A stretch of 22,500 bases of DNA from contig NW_003124911.1 of assembly GCF_000003605.2 (NCBI RefSeq), positions 82,838 to 105,337 on the forward strand, read 5' to 3'. The notes beneath the pieces were generated by a model that made no database searches, was not told the origin of the DNA, and saw only the letters and a list, made by a program, of their open reading frames with translations. This DNA is from Saccoglossus kowalevskii. Lineage: Eukaryota; Hemichordata; Enteropneusta; Harrimaniidae. Position numbers and translations under genes: made by a program. Each line of letters starts with the position of its first letter. Within the stretch, counting starts at the first letter, position 1. This document shows, one piece after another, positions 1-19,700 of this stretch.

Positions 1-64
1 CTTGCGGTTTTCAACAAGAAGTCGGAAAAGTAAAACATTGACACTGACGACACCGGACACTCAC

Positions 65-103
65 TCATATGATAAGCTCCGCTCGACAAAGTCGACAGCG
101 GAG
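65..103 (-). CDS. Very tentative second exon of the TISU-start gene
   Basis: On the minus strand a pyrimidine-rich stretch ending in TTTTTTAG precedes position 103, and a strong GTGAGT donor begins at 64. The 39 nt between them stay open when joined in phase to the candidate first exon at 435..341, giving about 13 residues beginning SSAVDFVERSLSY after the junction. Without the donor, the frame stops at once with TGA. The interval overlaps an inverted repeat, so the apparent exon may be chance. No protein family is recognised. Confidence 0.15.
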   Translation of the reverse strand, partial: LRCRLCRAELII

Positions 104-105
104 CT
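75..105. repeat. Short hairpin-forming inverted repeat
   Basis: The arms AGCTCCGCT (75-83) and AGCGGAGCT (97-105) are exact reverse complements. Inside them CGAC (84-87) pairs with GTCG (91-94), leaving a 3-nt AAA loop and a 2-nt AC bulge. An A-run follows on the plus strand. It does not match the histone 3' stem-loop pattern. Its function is unknown, and it could be a remnant of a repeat. Confidence 0.6.
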
Positions 106-340
106 AAAAAAGTTGAATATCATCTGAATTGTAACGTCTGGAGACTGGAAAGATTGTAACAACAAATTAAAACAGTTTCATTCAAAGTTTGAAATGAAAA
201 ACTAGCTTGTTTCCGATCGGTACTTTACTATCGATTCCCAGCCGGCCAGCAGCACTTCTCGCACATGAAATGCAAATTCCCCCAGTCTCGAAAACAAGAA
301 AAATTAACCAGCTTTATTAAATGAGAGATGTTTTATTTAC

Positions 341-435
341 CTTGTCGACATGAAATATCCAAACAAAATAATAAAACATTCGTTTATTTCGTTTTTATCG
401 CGGGATTGCAAAATCCGACCTATTTTGGCCGCCAT
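341..435 (-). CDS. Candidate first coding exon of an unidentified gene, starting in a TISU motif
   Basis: The minus-strand ATG at 435 opens a frame of 31 codons plus 2 nt. It begins MAAKIGRILQSRDKNEINEC and ends GYFMST before a good donor (ACAAG|GTAAAT) at 340. An in-frame TAA lies a short way upstream, so translation would begin here. The start codon sits in a perfect TISU consensus, which in known genes marks mRNAs with very short 5' UTRs. The surroundings are richer in CpG than most of the window, as expected of a promoter. I do not recognise the protein. The main problem is position: it would start inside, or just downstream of, the reticulon gene on the same strand. A nested gene, an assembly join or coincidence are all possible. 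Confidence 0.35.
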
Positions 436-439
436 GTTG
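428..439 (-). promoter_or_regulatory. Perfect TISU / YY1-type element at a start codon
   Basis: Read on the minus strand this is CAACATGGCGGC, which matches the TISU consensus SAASATGGCGGC at every position and also the YY1 core (ATGGCGGC). In characterised animal genes TISU directs both YY1-linked transcription and scanning-free initiation on short 5' UTRs. If active, the transcription start would be expected roughly 5-30 nt upstream, near 440-465. Activity is inferred. Confidence 0.5.
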
Positions 440-1211
440 TTTGTTGTTGATAGTTATAAATTATGCTAATGAAGCTAGCGCATGGGAAAAACGTATTGTT
501 ACTGAGGGGTCATCTCGGGGTGATTCTCAACGAAAGATGTTTTCTATTTTGATCTTTTTTTTTTATACGGTAATATCAATAATTCGCAATCGAGAAAATT
601 TGTTTTGTTTGGGCAGTTTTGACACGTCGATGCTTGCAACAAATAACTGTAATATTGCGTGTACGATGATAGTGTTTCATTTCCGGTTTGTTTGACTTTC
701 TGATTCAACACCGACAGTTGGAGCAATCGTTATGAGTTTGGTAAATTTTGTTTATTACCAATGCTTCTTCATTTTTAATGCCTGTTTTTTCAAACATGGC
801 AACGTTGCCTGTACATTTTGTCATAGTGTACAATCGACAATACTAATGATGGGACTGATTACCGCCTGCGATGAAATATGTGTAAGAGACTGGGGAATAA
901 GACTGCATGGCGAGAGTGTGAAAGTCTGAGCTGAAACGCCAATGCGGCCGATCGTTGACAATCGTTCTTATGCATTAAATACACCAATGAATCACTTGGT
1001 TTCAGTGAATTTACATGATATAATTTGTAGTAAAAAAGTAAAGCTGTGTAATTATCCAGATGAAAATGAGTGACTTTTATTAAACAAGACCTGTTCATTG
1101 TACAATGTGTAGGTTTGTTTTTATGTTTAGCTTATGATCTCCCTTAAAATTCCCGCCCTAATTAATATTCATGATTGAATGAATAAATTAGGCCACCTCC
1201 ATATAAAGACC

Positions 1212-2102: not shown

Positions 2103-5100
2103 CTGTGAACAAAGATAAGATGACACACACACAAAAAAAAAATGATAATTACAATTTTATAAAATAAAATGAAACGAGAAAGCAGGGAATTATCATTGAA
2201 TTAGGGCGAGGGATTGTGCGCAACAAAACGAACACCTACCTGCAGAAATGCAATGTGGGTAAAAACAAGAATACATAATTGATGATGGCAAACATTAAAT
2301 TAAGTCATGCATCTCTATGCTACTGCTTGCAATATTGATAAAGATGCATTGCTTGAGCGATATTTCATGCACACCGTTTAGCATCCCAGTTTAAACATCC
2401 AACTTGTAATCTAATTGTCCATAAAATATACGCTTTCTATACACTGATTATCATTAATAACAATTTCAAACCTTCATTAATTGGTGATATTATGATTGTA
2501 TATAACGTGATTGATTTTGAAGATTATATCCCAACATCCTTGTCTAAAAACTCGCTCGATATAACAATTACTCATTGATAATGAGATCCTGACAGTTGTA
2601 TCTCTATACAATGAAACTGAATTATTCAAACTCCACTTAGGCATATTTTATGAAGATTAGTATTTTGTGACACATCATTTTTTTATATATATATTCATTC
2701 AAACACTTCAAATAATAAACTCAACTTGTGTAAATATGAATGAGACAAAGCAACTGCAAATCTCTTGCCAATTTAATATTGTATTCAATAATGTATTTGA
2801 ACTCAGTAGAATTTGTTCAGCAAGATAGCATATACTGACAAAAATTTTAGTTATTGAATCTTGATTTGAGAGAAAACAAATAATAAATAAAGTATAAATT
2901 CTAACAAATAAATAATACTAAAATAACAATAATAACACAAACCATCGTCTAAAATTCCGGGAGAGCATGCAGAGAAAAACAATAAACAAAATACATGCAA
3001 ATGAACTCTGGCAATGTTAAAATATTGATTGCTAATAATAACAGTACTGCGAAAGAATAAGAATTGAATGGTGATGTGATCTTTCCTAGAAGATAAAATT
3101 CATGTTTAGTAAATTATAAAAGATACTATCTAGTGAAATGAACAAGAATAACAAGAGCAGAGTTGATGCAAAAGGGAAGGCAGGCAATAGAAGACGTGGA
3201 CAGAAGACACATCATGAAAAAAAACATAGATGTCCATGTATCAAGGCAGGGACAGGGAAACTTGGGGGGAAAAATAAATCATTTAAACATTTTTTTTTTT
3301 TGCTAATAATTTGAATACATTGAAATTCCTTAGATATGGGCACTACCCCTTGAATTGAATTACAAAAGCTGGAACAACAGATGCTTTAAGATGATTTCAC
3401 TGAATGTCTTAAATCCAAGAAAATTTTTAACAAGTTATTTTTAAACACTAGGAAATAAAAACCTTGAGCTACAATTACAAATATGAATTTTGCAGAATTA
3501 CAATAATTCAGTGGAAGTCCTAAGGGCTTCCAGGTCACTGTCTATTGTAAGAATATAGCTAATGTTTTTTACTGATATTAGCAGTGAGCTAGGAGGCCCA
3601 GGTCAAGGTATTCCCATGTCTTGTCAAGAGACACACCTATTTCTGATGCAGCACATATACAACAACCTACGTGCCACTTCAAATAAAAACAATTGCTTAT
3701 ACTTGAATATGCAGGAACCATTTCATATTTCTCATTCAAATAAATATTATATTAAGCTTCACAACAAATTTTGCCATTTTTTCAGCAACAATGGCAATTA
3801 CAGCTTTGTATGAGAGAATAAATGATATTTGTCAGTGTTATACACACATTTTGCTTCCATATTTCTGTGTAAAAACACTGTATTTCACTAAATAATTATT
3901 AACAGTTGTCAACACTGATCAATATCACAAATACCACATTAACTGAAATGAACAACAACCAAATACTGCCTACACAAAGACTACACATAATTAACCAATT
4001 AATGTCAAACATGTCCAGTTTTCGATCATCGCACTCCAGAACACCATCACATTTCAATTTAAAGTAACAGGTTAAAATATTTGCGAATTATTTCAAGCAC
4101 GAAAAGAACGATTGCGCGTTTCATTAGGACCCATTCAGCCGAAATTCTGCAAGAGTCTTTTGCCAACATCCTCTAAACGCGAATTCTATTGCCAGCATGC
4201 ACGCACTTTTGACGTTATTAATTTGCATATCAAAGTATAGAGAAAAACAATTCTTCAGTTTTTACTTTTTTTTGTCTGTAATGACTCGTATGTCAACAGC
4301 ATTTCAGTTGAAATATTGTAACTTTTTATTTTTCAAATTTTGAATAATCATAATATATTTGCTTTAAGCTAATTAAGAAATATATAAATGTCTAAGACTG
4401 AGGGTTATTAGTCTGGCAAAATGATATACTATACCAAAAATACATAAAAAGAAAAAAAATAGTCTAATTGCTAAAAGACCTGAATAAGTTTTTGATTGCA
4501 GTTGAAACACAGCTGTTCCTCTCCTTACTAGGAGCAGGTGCAATCTGTTCAACAGGGGACTAATCAGACTAACATATTAAACATGCACTAATTTGATGAA
4601 AAATTATCATCCTCCTGGCTGAAGGCGATTTTTAAAATATGATGCAATACAAAAAAAACAAAAAAACTGCAGTTAGAAACAGAAAACCAAATACCACACC
4701 ACAAAATAGGGAGGAGGCACTCACTACTTCTTCCTAAAAGTAAAGAACTGGGTAACTAAGCTGACAAATTTGAAACCTAATATTTGTACAGCCAGAAAAT
4801 TCCAGGAAATGAATCAACAAAATTATATTTGGCTGGTCGTTGAAATTAATCGATCATCCACTTACCTTGCTTGAGGGGAGTTTTACTAAGACACTCAGAT
4901 TGTAAAAGACGACCGGAGTCTTTGACTTGCATGACAGCTGACATAATTGCATGGATCTCGAAAGGAAAGTAGATGGGAATACCATACATGGTTATGGGAG
5001 CAAGTCGGTTTTATAAAGTGTGGTGATCACCTCGCGAACACGGCTAGTTATGAATTCTATTCTTAGCAAATGCGCGATATTTTATATTCTGTATGCGCGT

Positions 5101-8100
5101 TGGCAAAGACCAGCGCATCATGTTTATTCCATCCATTAGTTCATCAACATTAATCCCAGATGGGTTCGTCTGCTATTTTTGAACCGTGGCCAACCACATG
5201 TCTGCCAAACAGAGGTCATAAAGGTCATGCTAACATGCTAAAGCCTTTGTACAAAAGAAACTACAGACACTGAAACAATCCCTCCCATACTTTTCACTGT
5301 AGTGTAAAAACAAGGGGACAAGCAACAATTTAACATTTGCATGACTTTTAAGTTATCTAAATTTTGTTGTCAAATTTAATATTGGAGAATCAGGCAACCC
5401 TACATTATGCCACTAAAAAACGTGCACACTCTACCTAAATCTGAGGTGAAACATAGGACAAGCAGTCATCGTCTATTTCACTGGTAGCTCAAAACTCAGA
5501 TTAAATTGTAACCACATTTTTATTTACAGTAGCTAAATGCAAATCATAACCAGAACGTGCGAAATTGGATGCATGTATTACAATGATCATGCTAAGATAT
5601 CCAAGCTAACTTTAAATTACAAGTAATTGTGCTATAGAAGGTACATTGAGCAGTCGAGTCACACCCGCTGTCTGCCTCGGTTGAACTAAAAACATTAATC
5701 AACATTCAAGTGAAAGCAGGAAAATTCAACAATTAACTTAAAATACGACTATAGCATGCATATAATTAAACAAAATTAATTATGTATGACTAACAATATT
5801 AATTATTTCATTCTGTGACAACTCAAGTGATTAAAATGCCAGAGAAGTTATCTCACAAAACAAAAATTCACAGCACGTTGAATGCAAAATTCATTTCCTA
5901 TTTGTTCGTCCATCCGCAGTGTCTTGCTCACTAGCTAGTCCTACTTACATACATAATAAATATGGCTGCTTGCTTACGCAAAAAAAACAACAACCACAAA
6001 ATCAATTTTGGCATACACGCATGCTAAACACGAAAATCACAAAAAGCTTTTAGGAAGGGGATGGAAAAACAGTAGTCAAAATTTTCTAAATCTGACATTT
6101 TTTTGTAAATTAAAAAACAGCTTTGAAGCAAGCAAGCCATTCGAAGATGCATTTTTTTTTCACTATTACCTTTGTGTTGACTACAGCTATTACTAGTCAC
6201 CACTGCTTCATCCCCAACACACTCCTCAACAGTGTCCTCTGTAATTTTACCATCAAAGTCACTGGCTTCCTGCATCTCTGATAATATGAAAACAGTTCTA
6301 GAATATCTAACACTAAAAAGCACTGAAACTGGAGCGTATCAGGATATCATCTCAGGTGAGAGATTTCACCTTGAACAGCCCTGGCCTTGATTATAGTATC
6401 CGCAGTCAGTCGCTAGTAAATAACATGATAATGTATGTATCATTTTATATATGCACACTGACGAGTTACCTGTCCCATTTACCTATTGTTATTCATGAAC
6501 TCAATGCATCTCAGGGGCTCCTTAAAGGTAATCTGAATTTTCAGCCACAAGCTGACAATTTCTTTCTTCATTATTTTAGCACAAGTGCAAGGGACATGTA
6601 ACAAATATTTAAACAGTATTGAATTTCAGCTGAATGGGATAAAAATTTCCCAGACTCAAATTAGAAATCTACATCCCGACTTTTGATGTAAATAGGCTAA
6701 TTTGCCTAACAATGCTTCATGAATAAAGGCTTATTTGAAAAAAGAAAGACAATCTGCCACAGGATAACAATGATATATTACTAAATTAAGCACATTCCTA
6801 ATGTGCCTTGACTACAAAGATATTCAAACACAAAAAATGAAAACTACCAACAGACACTTAGCAGGACTTTATCACCAGCCTCTGTTTGATTTAATCAACA
6901 TACCACCAAATAGTCATTCCTTTGTCTGTGAGTAGAACTCCTAGCACAAAGACCATATTTATGAGTAATATGCAAAACTGTTAGGTCAAAAAAAGGATTA
7001 CTCAAAATAGTGCAAAGGTCAGAGTCCTTTATTTGATACATATTTTTATTTTAGTCAAAAAAAAAAATTGTATAATAAATAATGTTTTGCATCATAATGG
7101 GTTGAGGAAATGAAAGCACTGAGACTGTAATCAGGGTCATTAGCATAAAAAATGGTGTGTGAAAGTGTGTCTGGGAAGAGGCTGAACAAGTGGAGCATCA
7201 TAAAGGATTAAATTAACCAACTGCAGCTGAAATTAAGTGGTGAATGATAACGTAATAAAAAAATGTTCCCATTTTTAATTACAAAATGAATAATACAGAT
7301 ATTTGATAGACTCCTTTCTGCTAAATACTGATAGATATCCCAATGCCCAATATAACTTAGCACCAACACCAATGATGCACTTCCTATGACCTTGCTAAAT
7401 AAATACCCAGTTTGCATGCACAAAAGGCAGAACATATCTATCAATAAGAGTATTTTATATGAATGTTTTAATGACATTACCTCTGGTGTCCATTTTTTGC
7501 AATCCATCGAATATGCCTCCTAGAATTAAAAAAATATAAAAAGAACCTAGATTAGGGTCAATTTTACTGAAATCAACAGTTCTAATTTGCATATGTAATG
7601 ACGTACAACATTACCATCGTTCCGCAGTATCCACACCTATTGTTTACAAGGGTTCATGACCAGTGCATGACGAGTACATGATAAATTTCATTCAATCACT
7701 GAGTCATTCAGAGTGATATCTTTTTTTCAGATTACTTCATGTTTCGCATGAAAATCTGGTAAAGCAAAATCTGCATCAACCATATAATTTCTAAAAAAAC
7801 AATCGCGTTGTTCATTGTAATGGATGCAGTGCATTAAATGATACGCCAGACAATGTTTTAACCAGTTTATTGAAACACATGTCATTGTCACATGGATTGA
7901 ATGATGAAATTTTGTCAAGAATGGCATTCCGCATTATACCGATGATAGTTTTAATTTACATACAATGTAATATACAAGACCGATCGATATTTCCTGCCTC
8001 CCAACAGAGTTACACTGCAGTCACACTTCGATTATTAGTAATACATTACCTGTTTTGGCAGGCTCTTTGGTTTCTTCTGGCGGGTCTGTTAACGAGAAAC

Positions 8101-8428
8101 CCGTATCTTCTACGGGTTCGGTAACATTTGTATCTGGGATTAAACATTCGGGCTCCTCGTTAATAAGGTCAGTCGTAGAAGAAATTGGTTCTTGATCTTC
8201 AAATCCACCTCCTAATAAATTTGCTGTAGGAACAGAGGGCTCCGCTTCGGAACTTTGCAGAGGAGCGCCTGTGTACAGATCTTCTTCTGCAGCCTCATCA
8301 TCAAGCCTCGACGAGGTAACGGCCTCTCCTTTCGGTGTGTCTAGTTGAACAAAATCATCATTATCGAATGGTGCGCCGCTCTGTATTGGTTGCTCAGAAG
8401 AAGCGAAAGTGGGGTCAAATTCGTCCAT
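1895..8428 (-). CDS. Reticulon family gene, 5' part (3' exons outside window)
   Basis: This is the partial gene span on the minus strand. Firm coding exons are 8428..8050 (N-terminus, 126 codons + 1 nt) and 2102..1895 (first RHD exon). Supported but less certain exons are 7519..7481, 6277..6170 and an alternative first exon 4989..4866. Reticulons are integral ER proteins whose RHD has two long hydrophobic hairpins that wedge into the outer leaflet and curve ER tubules. The N-termini vary by isoform and the RHD is conserved. Joining 8050 to 2102 gives [18 protein letters not shown] with intact frame. Every 5' exon ends in phase 1. The exons for the rest of the RHD and the C-terminus are not in the window. 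Vertebrates have RTN1-4; I cannot assign a paralogue, and invertebrates often have a single gene. Confidence 0.92.
2103..4865 (-). other. Reticulon intron upstream of the RHD exon
   Basis: This is AT-rich intron sequence with no conserved coding block. It contains a juxtaposed acceptor/donor motif at about 2240, a speculative 9-nt microexon at 4733..4725, homopolymer runs such as T10 near 3291, and a slightly CpG-richer patch at about 4080-4210. The open frame at 3562-3813 on the plus strand has no recognisable domain. Confidence 0.8.
4725..4733 (-). CDS. Speculative 9-nt reticulon microexon
   Basis: On the minus strand a pyrimidine-rich acceptor (CTTTACTTTTAG) is followed by GAAGAAGTA and then a consensus donor GTGAGT. 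The 9 nt keep phase, and inserted before the RHD exon would add three residues (GRS) and change the first RHD residue from V to M. Such closely spaced sites can occur by chance, and nothing else supports splicing here. Confidence 0.2.
4866..4989 (-). CDS. Alternative first exon of a short reticulon isoform
   Basis: The minus-strand ATG at 4989 has A at -3 and an in-frame TAA 27 nt upstream. It opens 41 codons + 1 nt beginning [16 protein letters not shown] and ending SKTPLKQ, and runs into a near-ideal donor CAAG|GTAAGT. The exit phase is 1, exactly what the RHD exon needs, giving ...PLKQ-V-VELIYW. A TATAAAA box lies 20 nt upstream of the first ATG, so the start may instead be Met16 (4944) or Met20 (4932). 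Vertebrate reticulons likewise have short C-type isoforms with a private first exon spliced straight to the RHD. There is no convincing acceptor upstream, so a first exon is favoured over an internal one. Confidence 0.6.
4990..6169 (-). other. Reticulon intron between the cassette exon and the alternative first exon
   Basis: The part nearest 4990-5120 is the proposed internal promoter. The rest is AT-rich with no recognisable exon, RNA gene or repeat family member. A donor-like GTAAGT on the minus strand near 5951 lacks an upstream acceptor with an open frame. Confidence 0.7.
5009..5015 (-). promoter_or_regulatory. TATA box of the internal reticulon promoter
   Basis: TATAAAA on the minus strand lies 20 nt upstream of the first ATG of the alternative exon. 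Transcription would be expected to start about 25-30 nt downstream of it, near 4980-4990. The flank upstream on this strand (5020-5120) has several CpGs (CTCGCGAACACGG, ATGCGCGAT, ATGCGCGTTGG), unlike the surrounding intron. This suggests a core promoter but does not prove it. Confidence 0.45.
6170..6277 (-). CDS. Reticulon cassette exon, acidic 36-residue insert
   Basis: The acceptor is TTTTCATATTATCAG|AG and the donor CAAAG|GTAATA on the minus strand. The exon is 108 nt with phase 1 at both ends, so it can be included or skipped without a frame change. Including it adds [19 protein letters not shown] then [17 protein letters not shown]. Ten of its 36 residues are acidic and two are lysine, a composition like the disordered acidic N-terminus from exon 1. 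An open frame extends past both ends but the splice sites and phase set the limits. No domain is recognised, as is usual for reticulon N-terminal regions. Confidence 0.62.
6278..7480 (-). other. Reticulon intron
   Basis: AT-rich sequence without recognisable exons. Acceptor/donor pairs near 6480-6530 on the minus strand hit stops in the required phase. No structured RNA or repeat family member was seen. Confidence 0.7.
7481..7519 (-). CDS. Reticulon 39-nt microexon
   Basis: The minus-strand acceptor (a T-rich run ending TTAATTCTAG) and donor (CCAGAG|GTAATG) enclose 39 nt. In phase 1 they encode [13 protein letters not shown] with no stop, and the exit is phase 1. Spliced directly to the RHD exon it gives ...QKMDTR-V-VELIYW, and it also joins in frame to exon 1 and to the cassette exon. 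It would form a short linker immediately before the membrane domain in some isoforms. The support is splice-site quality and frame only. Confidence 0.58.
7520..8049 (-). other. First intron of the reticulon gene
   Basis: 530 nt between exon 1 and the microexon. No coding block, repeat or RNA feature was recognised. Short ORFs overlapping 7727-8124 on both strands have no domain. Confidence 0.75.
8050..8428 (-). CDS. Reticulon exon 1, acidic disordered N-terminus
   Basis: The minus-strand ATG at 8428 has a strong context (ACC ATG G), with an in-frame TAG seven codons upstream. It opens 126 codons + 1 nt: [20 protein letters not shown] at the start, with acidic stretches such as [12 protein letters not shown] and [19 protein letters not shown], ending ETKEPAKT. 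The region is rich in D, E, P, S and T and lacks membrane segments, as in the cytosolic N-termini of reticulons. The donor is ACAG|GTAATG and the exit phase is 1. The assignment rests on the correct-phase junction with the RHD exon and on composition, because reticulon N-termini are barely conserved. It lies 503 bp from the divergent SPT start codon. Confidence 0.85.
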
Positions 8429-8600
8429 GGTTATGTTAAATGTGGGCTACTGGGATAAATGTGAAATTCTTGGCCAATACAGTTCCCTATGAAAAATTTG
8501 TGCAATGCTATCGGATTGCAATATGGCGTTCAGGAAATTTATGAAGAAGGAGAAGTGACGCAATGAGGTCAGGGGCTACTACACATGCGCAGTTGTTAAA

Positions 8601-8608
8601 TGACGTCA
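8601..8608. promoter_or_regulatory. Palindromic cAMP-response element
   Basis: TGACGTCA is the full CREB/ATF palindrome. It lies 172 bp upstream of the reticulon ATG and 323 bp upstream of the SPT ATG. Being symmetric, it could serve both genes. Occupancy is unknown. Confidence 0.55.
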
Positions 8609-8788
8609 TTTATATTTTTAATTTTTTTTTTTACTTGTTTCATTGAAATACACGTAATTTTACCTTTGTTTGAATTATAATCATCAAATTCTTATAATAA
8701 AAAAATTAACAAGTGAAAAAATATGTGACTCGTATGCTTCGTCTGTGTTGTTACGGTACTGCTCAACGTTATCAGTATGAGCCCTGTG

Positions 8789-8793
8789 ATTGG
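8789..8793 (-). promoter_or_regulatory. Inverted CCAAT box (NF-Y type)
   Basis: ATTGG in the context TGTGATTGGTCAG matches the extended NF-Y preference (GATTGGTCAG). It lies about 140 bp upstream of the SPT start codon, the usual distance range once a short 5' UTR is allowed. Confidence 0.5.
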
Positions 8794-8931
8794 TCAGCCG
8801 ACAAATATGTTGATATAATGGACCACTCAGTTACGACTACATCTCATTGAGCTAACCCCCCGTGCCAGCCCGCGAGAGCTATCTGACAAGTGGAATCCCT
8901 TATCAGTAACCTCAGACTAGTATTAACAGAA

Positions 8932-9057
8932 ATGGCTTTCGACGAAGGGGTTGTTCGAAACGGCGATGTGAAAAAAAGAAAACATCACAACCAGGGCGCT
9001 GTCGCCAACGGCATCCGTAACGGCCATACTATATGCAAACAAGTACCGACTTCAAAG
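8932..9057 (+). CDS. SPTLC2: SPT exon 1
   Basis: This encodes residues 1-42, from [15 protein letters not shown] to KQVPTSK. G at -3 and +4 give a good start context, and an in-frame TGA lies 48 nt upstream (8884-8886). The segment is basic and polar, with NG repeats ([13 protein letters not shown]) recalling the NGxVxNG pattern at the human N-terminus. The donor is AAG|GTATGA, phase 0. Confidence 0.9.
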
Positions 9058-10699
9058 GTATGATATTTATTCGGGTGGAGATTCGTTTCTAAAATGCATT
9101 ACCAAACATCTACATTTACCACTCTCATCCACCTGCTCATATGTTATAGCAATGTTGGTATGTCATCGACACAGAACGTCTTTCACGAACCACAACTTTG
9201 AGTTTGAGTGTTTGTTTGACCTTCGTGTTGTGTGATCATAGTCCGCGTTACTAGTAAAGAATTTAGTACATGTATTCGTGCTTTGTCATATACCAGGGGA
9301 AGGTTCGGTGGTATGTAGATGCGTTTTAATTCCCGCCACACCCAAAGGGCTATAGGAATAAACAAAACACAAAACACTCCCGATGTAGTCTAGCAATAAT
9401 ATACTATTACTACAGCGGAATTTCTTTAGTTCATTTTGGTTGATGAGTGATTTTGATGTTCCCGTTTTTTCCCTAGTTGAAAATTTCAACCTTTACTCTG
9501 CTCCTTCTAGAATTTTCTACCTTCATATGTACATGTTGTCAGAAATAAATCTAATCTATGGAGATTCTAACCTGTTAATCCCTCGATTATTTTTGAGAGA
9601 CAAAATACAATTTTTTTTACTTCAAAACAGCCGGGCATATAGTCATCGCAGTATATACTTTACTTTTTTGAGAAACGAATTTGTTTACAACTTCATCCTT
9701 CACAACAAACTGCTGAAGTCATCATTTTTAGTGGTTAGAAGTTTTATGATTTAAATTTTTTTATATCAGTAAGACCATATTTTTAATGTTGCACAAAATA
9801 AAACCTGCATATTTTTTCAGATATTTTACACAAATTTTGATCAATCAAAATTTATGTTCATATCGTCCAAAATGATGCAAATTATTATAGAAAAGTAGCT
9901 TTATTTAACATGTTCACATAGATTTAATTTAGCAAATTTTACTTATGCGAAAACAGCAAAATTGAAACCCAGTGAATAATTAATGCATTTACAGTACTGA
10001 CAGTACTTTGTGATCAGTGGTTCTGACCTATTTTGTAGATGATCACACCTTTTGTTGACTTTGTGTATACAATTTATGGTGTTTATGTGAGTTGAATTGT
10101 TCATCTTCTACATTTCTCATGGATTTGCATATTAAAGAGGTGGACTGTTTGGTGGAACTTGTGCATCTTGAAATGAAAAGTTGTTTAAACTGACTTGTCC
10201 AGGAGAAATGTCAACCACAATAGATTTGCTCAAGTAAAATTCAGATGTTCAGGATTTCAATTTGCTAATCTTATTTTCTACCAAGCTTGACCTTTTCACC
10301 ACTAGTTCTCTCTTTTCATCACAAATTTACAAATAGTCCCGTTTATAGTCTGCCCTTTCCTTCAGAAGATAAAAATGTTTCGAGTAAAAAATAAAAATTG
10401 ACTCAAATTTTGTCTGTTGGTTCCATAATTAGAGCTTATTTCCAGAAATATTGAAGAATATTACTGATATAAGAAAAAAAAGTGCAGAAAAATTTGGGCG
10501 ATAAAGTCTGGTGGTGAAAATGTTGAATGCTCTACATGTACTTTGTTTTGCTCATGACGTCTTCAACTAATGAGAAATTATGAAATCCCAAAAAAAACAT
10601 TTCTGGGAATAACAGGCTTATTGGATTTTTCTCAAATATTGAATATCTGAAGCTTTCCAATTGATTTTTAAGTTTTCTTTTTTTTTTTTGTTCAGCTAT

Positions 10700-10794
<95 letters not shown>

Positions 10795-13700
10795 TTGATA
10801 TACAATGTAAGTGACAGTTTTGAAAACATGCTTGCAATGTTTTTTAATAATGTATTGTCTACAGGTTAAGTATACAAAGAAGAAATCATGTGAATCGTTT
10901 GAGGAAGCTCCTATGCTGATAGCAATAGTTACCTACATGGCATATGCCTTACTTGTGGTAGTTGGCCATGTCAGAGACTTCTTGAGGAAGCTTTGTGGAG
11001 AAAAAAATAGTGCTGCAAAAGAATTTGGAAATAAGGTTGGTTTTTGTTTGTGTTACACCTTTTGATCTGTTCAGGAGTGTGCAGTTGACATGTACACATT
11101 CATGACATGTACTAAAATACTACTTCCTCTCTTTGTAACAATAACAATGGTTAGTACCCCCTAAGCTGTTCATGATTTTTTGCTTTTCAATGGTGGGAAT
11201 TCTTCTATGTAAGGTGTAAATAAATGTAAACAAAAGTCTAGTGCAGTTGAATAGGATACTGCAAACCGCTCTACATGTAATTTCATGATACAAATTTTTG
11301 CAAATCAGTAAAAAATGATAACCCTTGTATCAAGATTATATAATCTTACATTGGTTGATAAACAATGCCTCAAACTATGCGCATGTAAATTTAATGCTTT
11401 TAGATAATTTTTGGATTAACCATTACTGATGCTATAATTTTCAGTTGAAGTTGTTTAAACCTTTTCTCGCCATAATTTTTTCCGCCATAATTTTTCCCGC
11501 CATAATTTTTCCCACCAAAATGTTGGTGATACATTTTGCCTATTTTTAAGTGTTTTTCTATAAAATGGACATTTCATATTGCCTAAGGGTCTTGAGCAAA
11601 ATTTTGAAAAAAAATATTGAAAAAATGTCAACATGTTTTATTTTGTAAATGGCCGGTGACAGAAGTTGACTTAACTCAAAGATTTAACACAGTGACGAGG
11701 AATAGTACAGCAGTATTGTCTTAACAATTACATTTAGAAAATACTACTAATTTCATTAAAAAAGGTATTACTGATAGCAAGATTGTGTCTGAAACATTGA
11801 GTAAATCGATAAATTCTGTACAATTCAGGTTATACTGGGTTCCATTGCCAAGTATTCTTGTAGTAATCAGCACTTTTCAATTGGTAATCTATGTTTGGGG
11901 AGATTCTTTAGTTTTGTAAAAAGCTTGTAATTTGTGCTCTGTAGCTGCAGTCCAGTAGTTCTCAAATTTGTAATTTGTTCAATTCTTGGTGTGTCATCTT
12001 TATTATTATCTATTTCTTGACATAAATTATTTTCAACTTTCAGATTTGTATTAGCTTTCCCGAGTTTTTTTACAATTAAGTGTGGTTAACCATTTTCAAA
12101 TGAATGTTGTAAATAATCTTGTTGCCTTTAGCTTTATGTAAATAAGTCTCACTTTAAAGTGCAAGTTTAATTAATGATGTGTTAGTGTTACTTTTCGTCC
12201 ATGCCCAGACTGCGAAAACACTATCGCTAGAGGTTAATGCCCAAATTATATTAATATCTCCTGCTTTCCTACTACAGGGTTTTGTTCCATTATATTCCGA
12301 TTTTGAAAGTTTTTATACACGCAATCTTTATAGACGTATCCGAGACTGTTGGAATCGACCAATATGCAGTACTCCGGGTGGATGGTTTGATATCATGGAA
12401 AGAACTAGCAGTGATTACAACTGGCACTTAGAGTGAGTATTGATACTTTCATCGATGTAGGGTACTGTCTGATCTAGGGATCACTCTATCGTTCTAAAAC
12501 TAGAATGCCTTAGATCTTGGTACGAATTAGGGCTTGTATCAATAAAACAAACTACCTTTGAATGACGCTCTGTAGATATTTTCGCTCTTATCCCCATCCT
12601 ATAAACAAACATAGTATTCTTAAAAAAAATTTTAAAATACAAGTGATTAAAAATGAATTGAAAAACTATTGAGAAAACTATTTTTAAAAATTTAGTCTGG
12701 TTTCAGATAACTCCTTTGTGGTTTGTCCACACAACCTTTACATACTGTAAATGCCTAAATTATTCACTGGTTTTTAGTTTCTTTATAAATTTCTCTTAAA
12801 AGCACATGAACATGCATGCGAAATAACAATAGAAATCATTGTTTCCCTGCGTTTGTGAAATTAAAACCCAGTGAAAAAGCTCAAAACATCAAAATAGTGA
12901 AATGAAATTTCAGTGAAAATAAATGGTTTTACAGTATTGGTTTAGCTTGATATTTATACAGCTGAAAATACGATCTACGGTAGATGTTGAGGAATTGCGA
13001 AATTAATCTTGATATGAGTCAGTGTTGAGGACTGTAATCAATGTAACAATTATCAATGCATGTGGAGTGACGTAGTTTCGTTTTCAAGTAAGTTGAAAAA
13101 ATAAAAATATATGTGGTCCCAACAAAACTGAAAAAACTGCTGTCTATTTAAGGACTAGCTGATATTTTATTCAAATTAGTTGGTCGGTTTGATCGGCTAC
13201 CAGTTTATTTCTAGATCTGTGATGTGGATGACACGTTGCAGGTTTAGAATATCCCAAAAGCCAACATGTAACATTGTTGGCCCACTCGCTCTTGTAATAT
13301 GGTCATGTGACGGGGATAATGTGTGAATAAACATAGGGGATTAAACAAATTCTTTATTGAAATAGCACGCAGAGTGAAGTTGAACAACACATGAAAAATT
13401 ACTTTTAAATTTTGCGACGCTAATAATTTTCAAGCCGTAAATTAAAGTGGTTTTCATTGAAAAATCAAGATTGATCTTTTAATCAAGACAGTTTTAATTA
13501 TTTCAATGGACACATCTGCTATACTTTTGCGCACCCTTTGCAACATAAAATGATTAGTTATCATTTTAGACAAAGTCTGGGACTATTGGCTTAGATTCTG
13601 TTTGTCCGATATCAGTTTTTACTTCCGGAGCAATTTCTCAGACATGCTTTGATCGATCACAATCTAACTAAACACAAGGATTATGTATGATGACTTACAT

Positions 13701-16700
13701 ACGTACATTGATTTACATTACTATTTGATTTAGACTGACTGGTTTTTTACTAAAACTATTTGTCATGGTCATGTTGGGTTTTGAGTGCATGTCATATTTT
13801 TTTTGAGATTTGAACAATAATGGCAGACTGTTTTTTTTATTCATATTCATGCTGATTTCTCACTAATATATCATCTAATTCAGTGTAGCTTCATCAAATT
13901 TGTCGACAACCTGAAATTTGCAGTCTGTAAATGTTTCTGGAATCATTTCTTGCAGATGAACAGATTGACATCATTTTATAAAATTTTTTTTTCAGAGATA
14001 GCTTGCATAATTTCATTCACACTCATTTTTGTGTGATTCAGTCAACTATGCTTAGCCCATTACATTTGTAAAACACATTGACAGCCGAATGATTGCTTCA
14101 TAGCTCTATTTTAGTTGAAAGAACACCCACACTCTTGGATTGCTGCTAGTGATGAAATCAATGCTTGTTACATTGTAAAAAGTATCCAAGTAAAAATTTT
14201 CAAAAGGAAAAAAACCTCCTGTAGAGCATTTCATTTTCGCTACAAGTCATTTGATGCTGTTTGGTGGACAACATTTTGCACATATTACTGTGAATTCATG
14301 CCCCTAGTTTCAATTTGACCCCAGTTTATTTTTCACATCTGCAAAATTTTGTGTTTTCACTGATTCTTGGTTCTCTCACAATTTTGTGTAGTTAAAATTT
14401 CTTGGATCATGCTTCCTAAGTCTGTGTGCTTGTCCGTGTATCACAAATACTGCATACTCGCTTACCTGTATGCACAGTCTGACGATAAATCATATGTCAG
14501 ATATCAATCTTTGCTTGTTTTGAATGACTTTTTTTTCAGTATTCTAAGTGGGTCTTTTTCATTGTTTATATTTGCTTGTTTTGAATGACTTTTTTGTCAG
14601 TATTCTAAGTGGGTCCTTTTCATTGTTTTCACTGTTAATCACCTCCCTTTAATCCATTAACACCTAGAATCCATTAAACCCTTTACTGATAATGATTTCA
14701 ATGGTGTAACTGATGAACCCATTGCCCCCCCCCTCACTTATTAAAACTATCGGTATGTTAAGGAGCCCAATACTAATTTGCATACTTCAACCCTAAAAAC
14801 TTCCCCACAGCACCATTATTGCAAGGTAGGTTGAGAAGCAAAATTTAAATGACGGTTGGTAAAGAACTTGTTTTGTGCCACAAAACACATTTTATAACCC
14901 TACCCCCATTTTGTGCGTGCTGTTACTGTACAAAATTATTTAGAATATTTTATTTTCCCACAAATGAATGAATTCTCATCAGAACCCTATTTTGTTTGTA
15001 TTCTACTCAACATAGAACAAATATGGCCGCTAACTCTTTGTGATTGTGTTTGTTGATTTGGAGATCTTAAAATATATTTCTCGTCAACCAATGTGATTTG
15101 TAACATTTTCATTCTGCTGTCACATTTCTAACATTACATGTACACAACTAGATCTAATATACATATATTTATACTTGGCATTTCATTTCAGTATTACAAC
15201 GAGGGCTATGTCATGCAAATGAATGATTTTCCTCTTAAAGGGTAGCTCAGGAATTGTGACATGAAAATCAAAGTCAAAGTGTATTAATGAAAAAAAAATG
15301 TTAAATCTTTATTTATTCTGACTTATAATTTAGTCTGCAGAACTAATGTCTTAGGTAATCTAGCTGAGTCATCCACACACTAAATGAGCACTTCAGTTAA
15401 TGCGATTACTGTATTTGATCTATTAGTAGTGAATGCGATTACGGAAATAATAGATGTGAGTCTGTGGTCAAATATCAATAAATCAGCATAAAATAAAAAC
15501 AATTTTTGGTTTATATGAGCCTCTTACAGCAACAAATTTATTGCTTGTGTATGTATTCAATATCTGATTCTCTTAAGGTAAAATCTGATTCACACAGGGT
15601 AAAATCTGATTCACACAGGGTAAAATCTGATTCACACAGGGTAAAATCTGATTCTCACAGGGTAAAAACTGATTCACACAGGGTAAAATCTGATTCACAC
15701 AGGGTAAAATCTGATTCTCACAGGGTAAAATCTGATTCTCACAGGGTAAAATCTGATTCTCACAGGGTAAAATCTGATTCACACAGGGTAAAAACTGATT
15801 CACACAGGGTAAAATCTGATTCACACAGGGTAAAATCTGATTCACACAGGGTAAAATCTGATTCTCACAGGGTAAAATCTGATTCTCACAGGGTAAAATC
15901 TGATTCTCGTAAGGTAAAATCTGATTCACACAGGGTAAAATCTGATTCACACAGGGTAAAATCTGATTCACACAGGGTAAAAACTGATTCTCATAAGGTA
16001 AAATCTGATTCTCACAAGGTAAAAACTGATTTTTGTAAGGTGAAAACTGATTCTCATAAGGTAAAAACTGATTTGCGTAAAGTATAGATTCAGATTCATG
16101 AATTTATTTTTACCTATTATGTAAAATAATAAAATACGTTATTTGTATAACAGACCAGACTAAGCTAACAACGCCCAAGATAAATGCCTTATGATGAGAA
16201 TCTGTATTTAATTAATATTTTTTGTAGCGTTACTGGGAAATCAAGTCGGTGTATTAACCTTGGGTCGTATAACTATCTGGGTTTTGCCGAGGACTCTGGA
16301 ACTTGTGCTGAAGCTTCTCAAGAAACTTTAATTAAATATGGTGCCGGAGTGTGCAGCACCAGACAGGAACTTGGTGAGTTCTTAAAACACTGACCTGATT
16401 TTGTCTCAATGGCATGTATTTCGGTCATGAATATCTTTATGAAAATATTATTGTTTGTGCATGTATCTCCTTGCTAAAGCTTATAGTATCACCAATTATG
16501 TTGACTTGTTCAATGAAAATACACATTACCACATTTGCTTTATTATTAGCACATGCATGCTTCATTGAGTAAATGAGTGGTGTATCTGTCTTCAAACTAA
16601 GTCATAATTTAATGATTCTACATGTGTATGTAATAAATAATTTTGTCATTATTTTGTATTTCTAATATAGCAAATTCACTACTTTATAAAATAAGTTAAA

Positions 16701-19700
16701 ATATAATTTTTAGTAGTTACTTAGTCGTATGTTTGACGTTAACTTAACTATTTTGTTCTGCTATTTTTTTTTTTTTTTTGCTAGGCAATCTCGATATCCA
16801 CATAGAATTGGAAAAACTAGTAGCTCAATTCTTAGGGTTAGAGTCTGCTATGGTATTCGGTATGGGCTTTGCTACTAATGCTTTGAATATCCCAGCCCTT
16901 CTTGGCAAGGTGAGACCTTGTGTCATTTTAGTTGTTGTGCAGTTTCTATTAATTTTGTTTTTCAAAAATAACACTCCAAACCTGTATTGTTCTGCTCAGT
17001 GTGGCTTTATTAGATGCATAATATGGAAATCAGAAATCCATAAATCTTTTACCAAATTTATTGGAATTTGGATTCATGTTTTACAATAAATATTTTTCTT
17101 GTATTATTGACTGAATTTCTTGAATGAGTGTACCTTGTGAACTGATTTGCATCCACTTTTTTTAACCTATGTAAAACTAAGTCAGAATGATTTTTGGTAC
17201 TAATGAATACAATATGAAGATGCTCATACTACTATACACAGCTGCAAAATAAATTTTCATTCAAACAAAAAATAATTTTTCCATCTGTTTGTATGTTAAT
17301 ATCAGTAAGGCAATGTAGTACAACAAATTACCCTGCCGTGTGTTTATTCATTATGTACCACAAATATTGATCTGGCTCAGATGGATTTGATAATAAGATA
17401 AAAGTTTTTTTTTATCTTGCAAATAACTGTCAATGTCAGTGAAGTTTCCATTCACAGATAAGCATTATACGTCACTTAGAAAAAGATGAATACCATACAT
17501 GATAAGATCTACGAAGATCGCCAATCATCAAATGTGCATTCATTATGTCAGGAGGTTGTTTTTCTTTATACCCAATTTAGTGCTAGCAGCTGATAACAAA
17601 GACAAATACAAGACAAATAAATACTATCTGTACCATGGGACTCCATGGCACAGATTAATAAAAATTAGTTGACAAAATGGGTGTGTATGTTATTTCTGGA
17701 CTTTGACACGTCTCCCGTCTCTTACTAATAACAGGGCTGCTTAATACTGAGTGATGAGTTAAACCATGCATCATTGGTGTTAGGATGTCGCCTCTCAGGT
17801 GCTTCAATAAAAACTTTCAAGCATAATGGTAAGTAGATTTTTTTTTTTTTCTTCGGAGAAAGAGCCATTAATTATTCAGCTCATATTTCTGCTTTAATAA
17901 ATATTTGCTATGCTTCAGTGGAGATATGTGTGGAGCGTTTTTACTTTATTATATGATGCATATCATTCACAGTAGCGATGCTTAGTGTAAGTATCACTAA
18001 CTGATATTTCACACTAAAAGTGGCGTTAGGCATGAAAAACATCATCAGTCTCTGTGTGCTTGAACAATACACGTAGAAAACCCAAATCCCACAATGGTAC
18101 TGTATTTTATCCTTGCGATATGATAATGATTGGGTAGCAACAGTTACTTGCATCATGAAATAACAACCCATATTATTGATGACTGAATGTTTATGGAAAC
18201 TATTACCTAGAAGCATGATATTTCTTCAAATTTTGAAAAAACCATCGGCCGTAACTGTAAAATTGTATCCGCAGATGCTCTTAGAGGTCACAACCAATTG
18301 CATATGATTGGTAGCTGAAATTCCATGTGATCACTGTTTCTTGGCCATTTTGAGTTGGTCATGTGATAAAAAGGTTATCACCTGATATCACTTATTCATA
18401 TAGCTTATTGATATTCGTGGATCATGGGCTATATTTATATTATCCAGTCACCTTTAACCTATGACATCACTCTTATCAAACAGTTCTATGAATATCAAGT
18501 GATAACCTTGTATGTTGTCGTGACCATTTTCCGTACACTGCGAGAGGTCATAGCGTCGTAGTCGCGTCAAACATCGCGTGGGATTCGACAAACGCGAAAG
18601 TATTTGGGGGGACATTTCCATGCTTAATAATGTGCTGTCCACATTTGATGATAGGCAATTTCGATTAAGTGAGGGTATTCGGAAGCAATATTCCTCTGTC
18701 GAAGATCGGCCGGTCGATGTGAGTTACGAAATAAAGAAATTCTAGTTCAAAATCAAAGCGTTCGATTTTTGCGGCAGACGTTCGACGCGCGTCTTTCATG
18801 CATCTTGCGAGATCTCGCAATTATACGGAAAATCATCTATTGAAACAGTTTTATTCTACAAATAAATTTCCTGCATCATTCAATGCAAAATATACATTAT
18901 TCAGCTGGTCCTACTTTCTGTTGAGTGTCATATATATATACATTATTCAGCTGGTCCTACTTTCTGTTGAGGGTCATATATATCATTTTAAAAATATGAT
19001 CAAAACTAATGTACTGTAAAATTTATTTCTTAAAAAAAACAACATTTTTTTACCAATTCTTTAGACTTATGGTTCCTTGAATGATAATTTCAGCTGTGTA
19101 GGTGCTGGTTGCATATGCGTATTGGTAAACTAGCATTCTATTCTCAATATATTCATTTGACACAACAAACATGAACCATCATTTTGTCAGAGGGCGTTTA
19201 CAAGTTTCAAATATTTTCATAAAATTAAATATCTAAGTGAAGGTCATTAAAGTTTATTAGTTTTAATTGTTATCTTTATTGTTGACAGATATGAAGAGCC
19301 TTGAAAATGTCTTGCGAAATTCAATCATTGACGGTGAACCAGGCACTTACAGGCCTTGGAAAAAAATACTTATTATTGTGGAAGGGATATACAGGTAAGA
19401 GGCTAGCGATCACTCTTGTGTTTTGTTATAATTTTATACATGCAAAATTATTTTTCAACCCATTGAAATCATAACTCACCTCAGTGCTTTTTAGGAGAGC
19501 TATTTTTAACTTAAAAGACATTTTCAAAATGAAGGCCTGAAAAGGAGAGTCATAACTTTATAACCAGTTAACTTTATGTTTCACTTCTGTTTTCAGTATG
19601 GAAGGTTCTATTGCCAATTTACCTGAATTAGTGAGACTGAAGAAGAAATATAATGCATATCTTTATCTGGATGAAGCACACAGTATTGGAGCTTTGGGTC

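Follow-up and report, generated by a model that had tools for sequence, protein, structure and literature searches.

A reticulon gene and a serine palmitoyltransferase gene arranged head to head across 503 bp in Saccoglossus kowalevskii

Do a reticulon gene and a gene for the catalytic subunit of serine palmitoyltransferase (SPT), which start in opposite directions a few hundred base pairs apart, share one promoter, or are they an ordinary pair of neighbours? The question is raised by a stretch of 22,500 nucleotides from the hemichordate Saccoglossus kowalevskii (contig NW_003124911.1, positions 82,838 to 105,337), which is called the window below and in which all positions are counted. The original prediction placed both genes on one short promoter carrying a palindromic cyclic AMP response element (CRE), and proposed that an enzyme and its potential inhibitor are co-regulated in this way, as a notable invertebrate arrangement. 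We consider that the locus is most probably an ordinary head-to-head (divergent) gene pair, with a probability of about two in three, because the gene models, the split GC content and the CpG ratio of the gap, a candidate internal first exon of the reticulon gene, and the base rates of such pairs in animals all point in this direction.

Two genes with diverging start codons

The reticulon gene has its start codon at 8428 (minus strand) and the SPT gene at 8932 (plus strand), and the two diverge with 503 bp between them (8429-8931). A reconstruction of exons and reading frames from the sequence thus recovered the spacing originally predicted. Upstream of each start there is an in-frame stop codon without an ATG in between, at 8449 for the reticulon and at 8884 for SPT. 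The genes are neighbours on opposite strands with their heads facing, which is the gene orientation of a divergent pair. The 1,000-bp spacing rule for such pairs is applied here to the start codons, and for the transcription start sites to fall within the gap as well, neither gene may have a non-coding exon further upstream.

The SPT gene can be followed through 10 exons on the plus strand (8932-9057, 10865-11035, 12278-12432, 16228-16373, 16785-16909, 17735-17828, 19289-19394, 19597-19816, 20330-20456 and 20921-21056), with 9 AG acceptors, 10 GT donors and agreeing phases, the first exon carrying the start codon and ending with a GT donor in phase 0, and their joining gives a stop-free product of 468 aa. 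The best solved relatives of this product are the 'Serine palmitoyltransferase 2' chains 7k0i_B and 6m4n_B, which we take to be human sequences, at about 670 bits over residues 6-468 (E 1.5e-200 for 7k0i chain B). Next in rank are Long chain base biosynthesis protein 2a and another Serine palmitoyltransferase 2 (8c80_C) at 456-474 bits. Pfam reports Aminotran_1_2, and the 12 NCBIfam matches, mostly to bacterial alpha-oxoamine synthase families, all fall under their cut-offs. Because subunit 2 chains match at about 670 bits and SPT subunit 1 chains at only about 170, and because of the Aminotran_1_2 domain, the predicted product is that of the catalytic subunit, of the SPTLC2/3 type, with SPTLC2 and SPTLC3 undistinguished. 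Exon 8 holds the segment GTFTKSFG (residues 364-371), in which K368 is presumably the lysine that binds pyridoxal 5'-phosphate. The final exons were not found in the window, and about 65 C-terminal residues are missing (7k0i_B is aligned up to residue 479 of 544).

The reticulon homology domain begins in exon 1895-2102 on the minus strand, which matches positions 1-64 of the 157 in the PF02453 profile with an E value of 2.7e-15 and a score over the cut-off. Among solved structures, RTN4 fragments are the sole matches up to E 1 (E 0.28-1). With the PF02453 match and the 7k0i chain B match, both gene identities agree with the original prediction. The remainder of the reticulon domain, with its second long hydrophobic stretch, could not be located in the window; a filtered search for further reticulon exons returned none and also missed 6170-6277, so that its filters were too strict and the result is uninformative. 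Stray relatives of the domain exon were sought in prokaryote and virus contig collections as well, where none of the 590 and 204 pattern matches was confirmed. Upstream of the domain exon, the long-form first exon with the start codon and an acidic N-terminus (8050-8428) and two predicted small exons, open and bounded by AG/GT (7481-7519, 39 nt; 6170-6277, 108 nt; both entered and left in phase 1), all on the minus strand, each end in phase 1 and can be joined or skipped before the domain exon with the frame kept. Together these three exons encode 175 residues, 44 of them aspartate or glutamate. Judged by strand, splice phase and the acidic N-terminus, exon 8050-8428 is likely to belong to the reticulon gene. 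A joint Pfam scan of this exon and the two that follow gave no match at E 0.1, which fits the non-conserved N-termini of the long mammalian reticulons (PMC3918113).

The reticulon gene also contains a candidate alternative first exon at 4866-4989 on the minus strand, which opens with ATG, is free of stops and, with a phase-1 GT donor at its end, can be joined in frame to the domain exon. Just upstream of it, on the same strand, lies a TATA-like sequence, CACTTTATAAA (TTATAAA, within 5010-5020), together with an in-frame stop at 5013. This suggests that a short reticulon may be made from its own internal TATA promoter. If the exon is real, short reticulon forms would bypass the interval 8429-8931, and the long form alone would stand next to SPT. 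In mammals, long N-termini occur alongside very short ones in RTN1, RTN2 and RTN4 (PMC3918113). Among the matches listed on alternative promoters of reticulons there was nothing decisive on this pair, and in PMC3897714 the term 'alternative promoter' occurs solely in a reference, on zebrafish Rtn4 promoters.

Several other sequence features lie within the two genes. A CpG-rich stretch with an observed/expected ratio (o/e) of up to 1.5 occupies the left end of the window (1-700), within the reticulon gene on the present reading. The highest CpG ratio of the window (o/e up to 1.6) is found in SPT intron 6 at 18301-19000, with a 16-bp palindrome inside (18805-18820), and this stretch is perhaps a mobile element or a further start site. 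SPT intron 1 contains a perfect TATT microsatellite of 25 copies (10697-10796), and SPT intron 3 a tandem array of a 21-bp unit in 24.4 copies (15562-16073). A dispersed repeat of 86 bp, 88% alike, is found at 1549-1634 and 12852-12937, and a weaker, separate repeat pair at 1452-1531 and 9901-9984.

Motifs and composition of the gap

The palindromic CRE expected in the gap is present: TGACGTCA at 8601-8608 is the sole copy in the window and sits within a perfect 16-bp palindrome, TAAATGACGTCATTTA (8597-8612). Among shuffled versions of the whole 22.5-kb window, 13 of 100 contained at least one CRE, corresponding to about 0.003 expected per 503 bp. The window holds three 16-bp palindromes against 0.75 expected, and one containing ACGT occurred in none of 40 simulated windows. 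Measured from its centre, the CRE is 176 bp away from the start codon of the reticulon and 327 bp away from that of SPT. In addition, TGACGCAA at 8556-8563 on the plus strand is a candidate second site, which we assume to be a composite CRE-C/EBP-type half site, and on the SPT side a CCAAT box lies at 8787-8795 on the minus strand, in what we take to be an NF-Y-type context; the two are the only match to their respective patterns in the window (RRCCAATSR for the latter). The factor names given to these motifs are our own assignment. An NRF1 half site, a YY1-type match and initiator-type matches in the gap were given no weight. No endoplasmic reticulum (ER) stress response element (ERSE), unfolded protein response element (UPRE), E-box, Sp1 or GABPA site, or NRF1 core GCGCAYGC was found when 8429-8931 was scanned, and a model of ER-stress control was dropped with the absence of ERSE and UPRE. 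A bacterial promoter scan, whose model is irrelevant to animals, gave two promoter-like sites against 2.0 expected.

As a putative divergent promoter, the gap has a GC content of 0.372 and a CpG o/e of 0.87, compared with 0.338 and 0.59 for the whole window. Its GC content is not even: the reticulon end (8429-8608) has 0.411 and the SPT end (8741-8931) 0.461, and between them lies an AT-rich spacer of 132 bp (8609-8740) with only 0.189; among all 22,369 windows of this length in the sequence, no more than 213 are equally AT-rich. Since the GC-richer ends flank an AT-rich spacer and the CRE is nearer to the reticulon, the gap looks more like two abutting half-promoters than one, although an AT-rich, nucleosome-free centre between two start regions would give the same composition. 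Of the prediction of one short promoter, the short region of 503 bp stands, whereas a single promoter is not favoured, as the GC content divides the gap in two and the CRE is off-centre toward the reticulon.

Weighing the explanations

An ordinary divergent pair would be composed of two nearby RNA polymerase II core promoters within the 503 bp. The promoter next to SPT (about 8741-8931), which includes the CCAAT box, would fire rightward. Its counterpart next to the reticulon (about 8429-8608), which includes the CRE palindrome and the second CRE-like half site, would fire leftward and give only the long, N-terminally extended reticulon, and the short reticulon would probably begin near 5010, at a TATA promoter of its own. 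A loosely correlated, housekeeping-type expression of both genes may then result from open chromatin and factors of broad action; in Drosophila melanogaster, divergent pairs show a closer correlation in expression than pairs drawn at random (PMC2670823). Whereas the motifs and the identities, orientation and distance of the genes are seen in the sequence, promoter activity, start sites, short form and co-expression are inferred, and the pairing need not mirror any action of reticulon on SPT. Such arrangements are frequent in animals. In PMC11676430, the share of divergent pairs with starts less than 1 kb apart is put at 1.9-25.6% for insects, 13% for medaka, 9.4% for human and about 8% for other mammals, and PMC2670823 places 31.6% of the genes of D. 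melanogaster in divergent pairs. With head-to-head gaps under 1 kb this common, the description of the present one as notable rests on a post hoc choice.

Several observations weigh against the reading as an ordinary pair with these parts. The raised CpG ratio is not peculiar to the gap, since 1-700 and 18301-19000 score higher, and the bounds of the spacer were set after the sequence had been viewed. The motif list was likewise picked after viewing, so the rates given for it are not clean probabilities. On the reticulon strand, a TATA-like match that overlaps the CRE makes the layout of the reticulon half ambiguous; with a density of 0.65 per 503 bp it may be due to chance, and divergent pairs of flies tend to be TATA-less (PMC2670823). 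For the candidate short first exon the evidence consists of ATG, frame, phase and TATA, and its TATA ends about 20 bp ahead of the first ATG, so that this ATG may go unused and translation may begin at the next in-frame Met.

The same interval can be read as a shared bidirectional promoter, in which CREB/ATF-type factors acting on the CRE would raise SPT and the long reticulon together, while the reticulon restrains SPT as a feed-forward brake. The CRE palindrome and the second CRE-like half site lie inside the gap, the form adjacent to SPT is the long one with a Nogo-A/B-like layout, and the divergent pairs of D. melanogaster are more correlated in expression and more alike in function than random pairs (PMC2670823), which mildly favours co-regulation here. 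The inhibition of SPT by Nogo-B, on which the predicted circuit was built, does exist as a report: Nogo-B is described as a negative regulator or a 'potential' inhibitor of SPT in PMC12594915, PMC8167824 and PMC7037072, all of which cite Cantalupo 2015, and the last comes from the original discoverers of the relation. Binding of Nogo-B to SPT, which the original prediction also named, is not mentioned in the passages concerned. However, the well-established inhibitors of SPT are the ORMDL proteins (PMC12594915), and arteries in pre-eclampsia show a rise both in the Nogo-B of the endothelium and in the SPT activity of the whole artery, a result that the authors found hard to relate (PMC7037072). 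The CRE is also closer to the reticulon, and among the matches in the open-licence literature, judged by titles and abstract openings, none reports an action of a reticulon on SPT in flies or other invertebrates. Nothing decisive on this pair was obtained for the binding of Nogo-B to SPTLC1 among the matches listed, and in a 2013 review of reticulons, older than the Nogo-B/SPT work, the strings sphingo, ceramide and palmitoyl do not occur. We regard a shared promoter of this kind as quite unlikely, and a circuit of enzyme and inhibitor, though possible, is not needed to account for the gene arrangement.

The opposite view, that two wholly independent promoters were brought close by chance through a recent rearrangement and drive uncorrelated expression, is unlikely too, even though the AT-rich spacer parts the two ends, a separate internal reticulon promoter is predicted, and human divergent pairs are seldom common to flies. 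For pairs with data in the fly, 84.8% are significantly correlated, negative correlations included, which argues against independence (PMC2670823). An assembly error that fused two loci between the genes is highly improbable, as the window has no bases other than A, C, G and T and the gap has no significant repeat copy in the window to favour misjoining: its best match beyond itself is its own 16-bp palindrome, and all others have E values of at least 0.03.

A more far-reaching possibility, which we consider very doubtful, is an ancient conserved unit whose promoter, under the control of the CRE, drives SPT together with an A/B-like reticulon and couples sphingolipid synthesis to its brake, or the supply of ER membrane to the shaping of the ER. 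Vertebrates would then have split the pair after genome duplication; RTN1 and SPTLC2 are, we believe, both on human 14q. Only 12 of 1427 human divergent pairs are listed as fully conserved in D. melanogaster (table in PMC2670823), so conservation of any single pair across phyla is unlikely beforehand. In the open-licence literature, no report of a head-to-head reticulon/SPT pair was found among the matches listed, and no explanation for an ancestral linkage of the two genes, the match being, by its title, a mouse uterine study. Matches listed on reticulon family evolution and synteny and on invertebrate bidirectional promoters held nothing decisive on the pair. A term search of a gene-order paper gave no SPTLC, and reticulon solely as 'reticulon-4-interacting protein'; the whole words rtn, sptlc2 and reticulon are absent from a divergent-pair paper, where 'RTN1' would escape such a search; and PMC8605320 names reticulon solely in a reference. 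Should the pair turn out to be conserved and co-expressed, gene order would lend independent support to a control of sphingolipid synthesis by reticulons beyond the mammals and would tie the shaping of the ER to its lipid supply. Otherwise, the locus would simply add to the many divergent pairs of animal genomes.

Comparison with known systems

Compared with the inhibition of SPT by Nogo-B in mammalian endothelium, the locus involves the same two protein families, but the mammalian relation is a reported effect on SPT activity, whereas the evidence here concerns the arrangement of the genes. With the RTN4/Nogo genes it shares a long form with an acidic N-terminus and, by prediction, a short one on the same reticulon-domain exon, the long reticulon being in layout the counterpart of Nogo-A/B. 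It differs from them in that the N-terminus has no detectable Pfam match and in that SPT adjoins the gene, while no vertebrate RTN beside SPTLC2 appeared among the matches listed in the open-licence literature. A third comparison is with the divergently paired genes of animals in general: although the spacing here is defined by start codons and the gap looks split into two halves, the locus likewise consists of two protein genes on opposite strands with starts less than 1 kb apart, and the gap between them carries a CCAAT-type motif and a raised CpG ratio.

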